A model generated the notes under the pieces. The model saw only the letters and a list, made by a program, of their open reading frames with translations. It made no database searches and was not told where the DNA came from. A stretch of 64,000 bases of DNA, from positions 62,001-126,000 of the forward strand of contig JAKANO010000008.1 in the NCBI GenBank assembly GCA_021812385.1, given 5' to 3'. This document shows positions 53,289 to 54,782 of the stretch, piece after piece. Numbering within the stretch: position 1 is the first letter of the stretch; each line of letters begins with the position of its first letter. The position numbers and the translations under genes are program-made. The stretch comes from Pseudomonadota bacterium (GTDB lineage: Bacteria > Pseudomonadota > Gammaproteobacteria > Burkholderiales > Thiobacteraceae).

Positions 53289-54782
53289 CTAATCGGAATC
53301 AACATAGATTTGATTTTCAGGCACAGCTAGACCGAGCAAGATTTTTTTCATCGCATCCACCGCCAATTCCGGCCCAGCAATATAAACATCCGAACGGGTC
53401 AAAGATGGAATAGCCAGCAGCTTAGGCCCGAGCGTTCGCGCCACGGCATTTTCTTGACGCGAGGCGGTAGCATCTAAATCGCCGCCGACCACAATCGGCA
53501 CATAGTGAAAATTATCCAGCGCATCCGCCCATGCGCGCGCCAAACCGGGTAAATAAAGGCCGGATTCTTTGGTAGCAATCCACAGCAAATGGATCGACTC
53601 GGCTTGATCCAAAGCCATGGCATGCTCCATCAAGCTTTTAACCGCCGCAAAGCCATTACAAAAAGCTAAAAATACGATGGGTCGTTGCGACTCGGTATTC
53701 AGCACAAAATGACCCAGGGGACCACGAATCAAAACCGCGTCGCCGGGCTTCAACCGATCAAAAACATAATCGGAAAAAAGATTGCCGTGCATGCGCCGCA
53801 CGTGAAACTCCAAATGTCGATCTTCGCAAGGACAGCTGGCGATGGACAGCTGCGCGGATAAGCTTCGATCTAAAGTTAACACCGCCCGTTGACCGGCCAG
53901 AAAACGCAAGCGCTCATTGGGCGGAGTCTTGATATGGATCACCGCGATTTCATCCGTCGGATGCTCGATGGAACGCACAGCGCCGCCAATAAATTGATCA
54001 GGTAAATCCGAAGGCGCTTGTGCCACCTCGCCCTCAATAACCAAATCGGATACTGCGGTGCAGGAACACATCAGGGCATAGCCCTGTGCTTGCAGTGTTG
54101 GCGGGATGATGTATTCGTGCGGACGCACCTGTTTTATTTCGCCTGAAATCACGCGCGCCTTGCATTTACCGCAACTACCGTTAGAGCAGCCATAAGTAAG
54201 CGGAATGCCGGCACGCAATGCGGCTTCGAGCAAGCTATCGTTGCCTTCAACAAAAAAATCTTCACCCGAAGGCAAAATTTTTACTTGCGCTGAAATCACG
54301 CGTAAAAAATTATCGCGGATCAACAAGGCGCGCGCAGCATCCGATGCCGGCGGCGTTTGCATGCGTTGCGCATGCAGCCAATTGCTTAACTTCTGGGCAA
54401 ATTTTGCTTCGGCGCCGCCTTGTACAATGATCGCTTCAAGCTCGTGGCCCAGGCCATCGAGCATAATGCGCGCGTGATTTAACAATGCTTTCGCCTCGAC
54501 CAGCTCTTTGCTTAAATCATGTAAGCGCGCCGCCAGGACTTCCTTGTCAGGCAAGCTGCGCTCCAGGATGCGCCGACCAAAAGCCATCTCCTTAATCTGC
54601 TCGACTTGCTCCAGCACGGAGTTGTTTTCCAGGGAAGCATCCGGATAAGCCCGATACAGTTCGTCGAGCGTGATCATGCCATCGAAGGATTCGAGATCCC
54701 CGTCTTGAATTTTCTTTTGCAGCGCCCCACGTGTAACCCCTACCAGCCGGGCTGCGCGGTGCAAGTTCATGAGCTTTGCCAT
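53289..54782 (-). CDS. HTH / 2Fe-2S ferredoxin / reductase-like fusion protein
   Basis: 497 residues. Residues 5-50 look like an excisionase/MerR-type helix-turn-helix (MNLHRAARLVGVTRGALQKK, ITLDELYRAYP). Residues 55-140 form a predicted coiled-coil. Residues 165-255 are a plant-type 2Fe-2S domain with ligands C199, C204, C207 and C239. Residues 260-497 resemble an FNR-like reductase, but the flavin motif RxYS is replaced by SAQLSIAS, the NAD-binding GGTG by AFCNG, and CGPP by AGPE. Without those residues, flavin and nucleotide binding may be weak or absent. It may therefore be a redox sensor rather than a reductase. Divergent from mnmG and convergent with mnmE, so it is alone. Confidence 0.8.
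   Translation of the reverse strand: MAKLMNLHRAARLVGVTRGALQKKIQDGDLESFDGMITLDELYRAYPDASLENNSVLEQVEQIKEMAFGRRILERSLPDKEVLAARLHDLSKELVEAKALLNHARIMLDGLGHELEAIIVQGGAEAKFAQKLSNWLHAQRMQTPPASDAARALLIRDNFLRVISAQVKILPSGEDFFVEGNDSLLEAALRAGIPLTYGCSNGSCGKCKARVISGEIKQVRPHEYIIPPTLQAQGYALMCSCTAVSDLVIEGEVAQAPSDLPDQFIGGAVRSIEHPTDEIAVIHIKTPPNERLRFLAGQRAVLTLDRSLSAQLSIASCPCEDRHLEFHVRRMHGNLFSDYVFDRLKPGDAVLIRGPLGHFVLNTESQRPIVFLAFCNGFAAVKSLMEHAMALDQAESIHLLWIATKESGLYLPGLARAWADALDNFHYVPIVVGGDLDATASRQENAVARTLGPKLLAIPSLTRSDVYIAGPELAVDAMKKILLGLAVPENQIYVDSD

Follow-up and report, generated by a model that had tools for sequence, protein, structure and literature searches.

A conserved HTH-ferredoxin-reductase-like fusion protein that tracks dsrA, a candidate sensor or regulator of reverse-Dsr sulfur oxidation

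What does a DNA-binding-type domain do on a protein that otherwise resembles a reductase? The question is raised by one gene of the window, the whole 64,000-nucleotide stretch of DNA analysed here. The gene lies on the minus strand at positions 53289-54782 and is an intact open reading frame with an ATG start, coding for 497 amino acids. The initial annotation had described an excisionase-type HTH, a long helical stretch, a plant-type 2Fe-2S site with four cysteine residues and an FNR-like half with damaged flavin and nucleotide motifs, and had proposed a redox-sensing regulator standing alone beside mnmE/mnmG. As checks it had suggested a domain search with the first 50 residues, a structure prediction, an alignment of the RxYS and GGTG positions and a look at whether relatives keep the HTH.

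We found 14 full-length relatives of the fusion in nearby genomes, the window's own included, and the best 80 matches among named genomes all span the whole length of the protein, HTH included; their titles include Sulfuricella, Sideroxydans, Gallionella, Thiobacillaceae, Sulfuricaulis, Acidiferrobacterales and Muproteobacteria. The domain order described at first was borne out by Pfam, by the structural models and by the alignment of 87 full-length relatives, in which the layout is kept. The four ferredoxin cysteines, the HTH residues R9, R18, Q22 and G28 and the motif G354-P355-x-G357 are invariant in the 87 sequences, as are A315, C317, P318, C319, R322 and H327, and S316 is found in 86 of them with Asn in the remaining one. 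The gene belongs to a conserved family and is not damaged; the reading as a pseudogene or decayed reductase was dropped because of these invariant residues. Beyond these, one more family of the order and one genome from outside the class also have full-length fused proteins (L257 in G685, L258 in G683). In the papers searched, from an open-access library and not exhaustively, we found no named description of such an HTH-ferredoxin-reductase-like fusion; its parts, a MerR-like domain, a ferredoxin and an FNR fold, are known ones, here joined in an arrangement and a setting worth testing directly.

The N-terminal 47 residues (54642-54782, minus strand) correspond to a MerR/excisionase-like winged HTH. 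Pfam and PDB sequence searches with the single sequence missed this domain, with HTH_8 only below threshold (E 0.089). Searched member by member, 17 of 27 family members matched HTH_8 (best 4.8e-5) and 17 of 27 matched HTH_17, weakly (best 6.1e-4); Pfam MerR was absent from the families listed for these 27. When the N-terminal 162 residues were folded alone, the model exhibited a winged HTH (E4-6, H7-14, H18-27, E36-38, H39-45) with pLDDT around 90, followed by long helices at 55-76, 80-121, 126-141 and 148-161. These helices make up the coiled-coil-like linker of residues 55-162 (54297-54620, minus strand), supported by the models and by the conservation of P78, E81, L83, R86 and W135, and agree with the long helical stretch noted at first. 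The nearest solved folds of the N-terminus in Foldseek, all weak at E 0.06 or worse, are mostly MerR-family regulators, together with an excisionase (RdfS) and CbpM, which is MerR-like and binds a protein partner. As judged from the model the HTH is real as a fold, in line with the excisionase-type HTH first proposed, and it is kept in all 87 fused relatives.

The distribution of this domain gives a strong functional signal. Among 220 genomes of the order, each searched with a profile of the HTH+coil region (A3) and with the dsrA profile TIGR02064, 37 carry the HTH+coil domain and 44 carry dsrA. dsrA is present in every one of the 37 carriers, and the domain in not a single one of the 176 dsrA-negative genomes (Fisher p 2.8e-35, the genomes not being independent). 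In a class sample of 239 genomes, with the window's own left out, 40 of 43 carriers have dsrA (p 1.6e-19), or 41 of 43 once a dsrB fragment at a contig end of G290 is counted, and the two remaining dsr-less carriers are genomes 72% and 81% complete. The carriers represent 12 families in the order and 30 in the class sample; a wider profile (A4) added two matches, both weak. Scanning DNA for the strict pattern ASCPC[DE][DE]R, which describes the motif of the reductase-like half, gave 33 genomes in the order; 32 are dsr+, and the remaining one is a Cys-codon false hit. The class sample gave 11 genomes, of which all but the incomplete G408 are dsr+. The HTH+coil domain thus tracks dsrA as a marker of reverse-Dsr sulfur oxidation, and the link is strong. 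The fusion almost certainly belongs to this pathway, an assignment much safer than any mechanism, and may act in it as a sensor or regulator. The pathway does not strictly need the protein, since 7 of the 44 dsr+ genomes of the order do without it.

Gene order points the same way in part of the family. At about 18 of the best 80 named loci, mainly from Gallionellaceae, the order is dsrJ-dsrO-dsrP-dsrN-(DUF4202)-cysG-[fusion gene], and the gene also adjoins cysG in L108, L117 and L119. A DsrC-like gene lies near it in Sulfuricella loci; in G091 the gene is divergent from dsrA at about 1.5 kb, and in G023, G110 and G195 it lies within 9-16 kb of dsrA. Elsewhere it is found in dsr clusters, beside dsrC-like genes or alone. 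The dsr-region genes of Sideroxydans ES-1 are contiguous, Slit_1671-1686 (PMC3770913), with dsrP as Slit_1675 (PMC8788666), and the end of that cluster may include the fusion gene. Genetic linkage to dsr genes holds for Gallionellaceae and a few other genomes and was not seen in the window's genome, which has dsrA on contig C3 and the fusion gene on C1, so that the link is not visible from the window. The position alone beside mnmE/mnmG is correct for this genome and its GTDB family but carries little functional meaning, the gene having other positions elsewhere; a functional role of this position was dropped, as it is confined to that GTDB family. In the Gallionellaceae dsr loci L086, L103, L104 and L112, DUF4202 lies upstream of cysG, and unnamed conserved genes follow downstream, coding for a secreted-looking protein of about 305 aa, an ankyrin-repeat protein and a Cys-containing protein of 148 aa. 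In several Sulfuricella- or Sulfurimicrobium-like genomes (L061, L062, L063, L066, L067) the fusion gene is divergent beside a GlcF-like Fe-S protein with CCG and Fer4 domains.

The promoters of dsrA were searched for an operator. Of 40 dsrA promoters of the order (L201-L240), 31 have a palindrome, TACCC-N4/5-GGGTA, ahead of the gene, compared to 0.7 expected from shuffles; the spacer is 4 or 5 bases, and a scan with a fixed 4-base spacer is misleading for most promoters. The palindrome often comes with a TAATAT/TAACAT-like -10 element and with another, weaker copy about 30 bp downstream, and its strict form occurs once in the window's whole genome, at dsrA (G000:C3:32482-32497). The palindrome is, however, equally present in dsr+ genomes without the fusion protein (5 of 6 tested), and it was dropped as evidence for the operator of the fusion. 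This candidate operator would rather point to another, more widespread dsrA regulator, or at least not to the fusion protein. Footprinting upstream of the fusion gene itself turned up nothing beyond a short GAAACATGTACTTA-like stretch conserved in the genus, and no repeated dyad.

Both halves of the protein also occur separately. Stand-alone HTH+coil proteins of about 150 aa were found in 22 sampled dsr+ Gammaproteobacteria, and 9 of 11 aligned exhibit a conserved cysteine near the end of the coil or the C-terminus, in an xxCxxKQK-like context (L188:5541-6005, L190, L191, L192-L195, L197-L200); thiol sensors often carry such a conserved cysteine. In L188 and L197 the stand-alone gene is followed by a separate ferredoxin-reductase-like gene, also of the ASCPC type, and it occurs as well without an adjacent reductase partner. 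In L190, L191 and L199 the gene ahead of it, on the same strand, codes for a small protein (L190:7280-7783, L191:6746-7183, L199:6747-7163) that by eye resembles the C-terminal part of MbcA/ParS/Xre antitoxins. The tree of the reductase-like halves, built by a quick search that left some forks open, placed the ASCPC group apart from ordinary reductases with 100% support, with the two-gene and several HTH-less forms lying outside the fused group. On the same tree the label "fused" has to change three times, for which one fusion plus two losses is the simplest account, and a single origin of the fusion fits as the simplest reading. Two lineages thus dropped the HTH and kept the reductase-like half. 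One HTH-less paralog of the ASCPC type is in the window's own genome (L031:5386-6381, contig C9 of G000), 45% identical and beside an rlmM-like gene; in the tree it descends from a fused ancestor after loss of the HTH. Because the adjacent gene pair and the fusion both occur, these forms argue that the two halves work together, while the persistence of HTH-less copies in two lineages, this paralog included, favours some activity of the reductase-like half alone.

The larger part of the protein has the fold of a working reductase. Pfam Fer2 matched residues 170-243 (E 2.6e-12), with the spacing C199-x4-C204-x2-C207-x31-C239; this plant-type [2Fe-2S] domain (residues 164-252; 54027-54293, minus strand) has its four cysteines invariant, as the initial annotation had read it. 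FAD_binding_6 matched residues 273-359 (E 2.1e-7), within an FAD-barrel-like domain of the FNR superfamily at residues 260-362 (53697-54005, minus strand), and a nucleotide-binding-like domain, assigned by fold and motifs, follows at residues 363-497 (53292-53696, minus strand). The AlphaFold2 model exhibited pLDDT mostly of 88-97 over most of the C-terminal two thirds, lower at 430-450. Its fold is that of benzoate dioxygenase reductase and of the P450 reductase GcoB (Z about 24), which upholds the FNR-like half; the comparison with 1krh gave Z 24.3 over 312 aligned residues of the Fer2-FNR part with an rmsd inflated by domain placement, and the FAD/NAD part alone fits 7qu3 at 2.6 Å. The class I dioxygenase and monooxygenase ferredoxin-NAD(P)H reductases (BenC 1krh, CarAd 7c3a, GcoB 5ogx, T4moF) share the order Fer2, FAD barrel, nucleotide domain (Z 23-25), with 23-26% identity over the aligned part. 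In contrast to the BenC type, the fusion lacks the RxYS Arg, has a partly altered GGTG loop, an invariant Cys-Pro-Cys and an extra winged HTH and coil, and stays far under the NCBIfam cut-offs: BenC-type reductases are the nearest families, but the BenC equivalog NF040810 gave 134.1 bits against a cut-off of 430.

Such a fold, together with a fully intact Fer2 domain, is what an electron-transfer enzyme of sulfur oxidation would exhibit, and we regard this main rival to a regulator as possible but unlikely. The Fer2-FNR-like half would then pass electrons between a carrier and a Dsr component or sulfur-carrier thiol, the Cys-Pro-Cys would form a redox disulfide and the MerR-like N-terminus would dock a protein as CbpM does. 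The presence of CbpM among the nearest N-terminal folds, the ASCPC-type copies that persist without HTH in dsr+ genomes and the location of the gene beside cysG and dsrN in the dsr cluster agree with it. However, the flavin-phosphate Arg is absent in all members and the nucleotide loop is partly altered, the invariant Arg and Gln of the HTH suit DNA contact, and the HTH+coil is also found alone, away from any adjacent reductase partner.

The cofactor motifs themselves bear on a second rival, an ordinary NAD(P)H-dependent flavoprotein reductase with drifted motifs and an unimportant N-terminal domain. None of the 87 relatives has the RxYS flavin Arg, which 14 of 15 ordinary Fer2-FNR proteins of related genomes possess; at its place residues 315-322 (ASCPCEDR; 53817-53840, minus strand) carry Cys317-Pro-Cys319 and Arg322, invariant in all 87, so the replacement of RxYS claimed at first holds. 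The loss of GGTG holds in part: in the loop (AFCNGFA, residues 373-379) 60 of 87 relatives have Asp in place of the middle Gly, with the last Gly of GGTG/GxGxxP kept in 86 of 87 and AP kept, but the literal GGTG is also absent from 12 of 15 ordinary relatives, the ordinary Fer2-FNR protein of the window's own genome having ATGTG in its place. The CGPP motif, YIAGP at residues 467-471, was wrongly counted as damage; AGP is shared with the solved carbazole dioxygenase reductase, and CGPP to AGP was dropped as such evidence. This shared AGP, the largely kept GPxGxF and phosphate-loop Ser (Ser337 in 62 of 87) and the RxYS Tyr, kept in 16 of 87 fused relatives and 8 of 9 HTH-less copies, speak for a drifted reductase. 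Against drift, the replacement residues do not vary from family to family, so that the flavin site appears from the alignment to be remodelled in a fixed way and not lost, and "damaged" was the wrong word for it; the HTH, moreover, is kept in all fused relatives and tracks dsrA. We consider this explanation improbable. The nearest ordinary relatives, the Fer2-FNR proteins of the same genomes, which we take to be CDP-6-deoxy-delta-3,4-glucoseen-reductase-like, are about 31-37% identical, keep RxYS (14 of 15) and form a separate clade with 100% support. An accessory factor for sirohaem (siro(haem)amide) or DsrAB maturation, acting as reductant or scaffold at cofactor making or insertion, is the least probable explanation: the gene directly follows cysG in the Gallionellaceae dsr cluster and adjoins it at the three other loci, and the stand-alone HTH gene adjoins a gene read from sequence as hemD in L192 and L193, but most loci have no such neighbour, the HTH is left unexplained and the seven dsr+ genomes do without the protein.

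We hold with moderate confidence that the fusion is a one-component regulator of reverse-Dsr sulfur oxidation, responding to redox or sulfane sulfur. This regulator reading is supported by the co-occurrence with dsrA, the clustering with dsr genes, the HTH with invariant R9, R18 and Q22 and the stand-alone and paired HTH+coil genes; it is limited, and kept in balance, by the operator search that pointed elsewhere, the MerR fold match at E 0.06 with CbpM included, the HTH-less halves and the 7 of 44 genomes without the protein. The redox-sensing regulator of the initial annotation stands as the best single reading, from the HTH fold, its conservation in relatives and the one fusion origin; the DNA binding and the targets are what we infer. 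The MerR-like winged HTH, paired through the long helices, would bind DNA as a dimer, and the [2Fe-2S] ferredoxin domain and the remodelled FNR-like body would read the cytoplasmic redox or sulfane-sulfur state, with the invariant Cys-Pro-Cys, at the site of the usual flavin-phosphate Arg motif, as a putative part of the sensor. The sensed state would be passed to the HTH and alter target genes of sulfur oxidation. A more specific form is doubtful and put forward tentatively: in a MerR-like protein with a ferredoxin-reductase as sensor, the Cys-Pro-Cys in the emptied flavin site might react with sulfane sulfur while the 2Fe-2S cluster reads electron supply, which might make it the first regulator specific to reverse-Dsr, with the HTH-coil and reductase-like gene pair, or HTH-coil alone, as older forms.

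The proposed working would resemble that of SoxR, in which a dimer of MerR fold is switched by a 2Fe-2S cluster, except that here the sensor would be a ferredoxin-reductase module. MerR-family operators lie in the 19-20 bp spacer of the target promoter. SoxR/MerR regulators share with the fusion, as modelled, a winged HTH followed by a long helix, the fold match being weak; the cluster of the fusion is plant-type (C-x4-C-x2-C-x31-C), whereas the short C-terminal C-x2-C-x-C-x5-C of SoxR is not present, and its sensor would be the whole reductase-like module. The sHdrR and SoxR proteins of Hyphomicrobium are ArsR-type, sulfane-sulfur-responsive repressors of its thiosulfate oxidation (PMC12423496, PMC10451225); their fold is unrelated, and the fusion would share their role, tuning sulfur-oxidation genes to reduced sulfur. 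DsrL, an NAD(P)H-linked iron-sulfur flavoprotein and known partner of rDsrAB (PMC7596348), shares the tie to rDsr and was not found as a relative of the fusion in any search of this analysis.

How sulfur oxidisers sense reduced sulfur is described as poorly known (PMC10451225), and in the papers searched, from an open-access library and not exhaustively, no transcription regulator assigned to the reverse-Dsr route was found. With its DNA-binding-type fold and its absence from all 176 dsrA-negative genomes sampled in the order, the fusion protein is a direct, testable candidate for such a regulator, and its reductase fold, remodelled at a flavin motif that is now strictly conserved, is a useful case of an enzyme scaffold possibly turned into a sensor.
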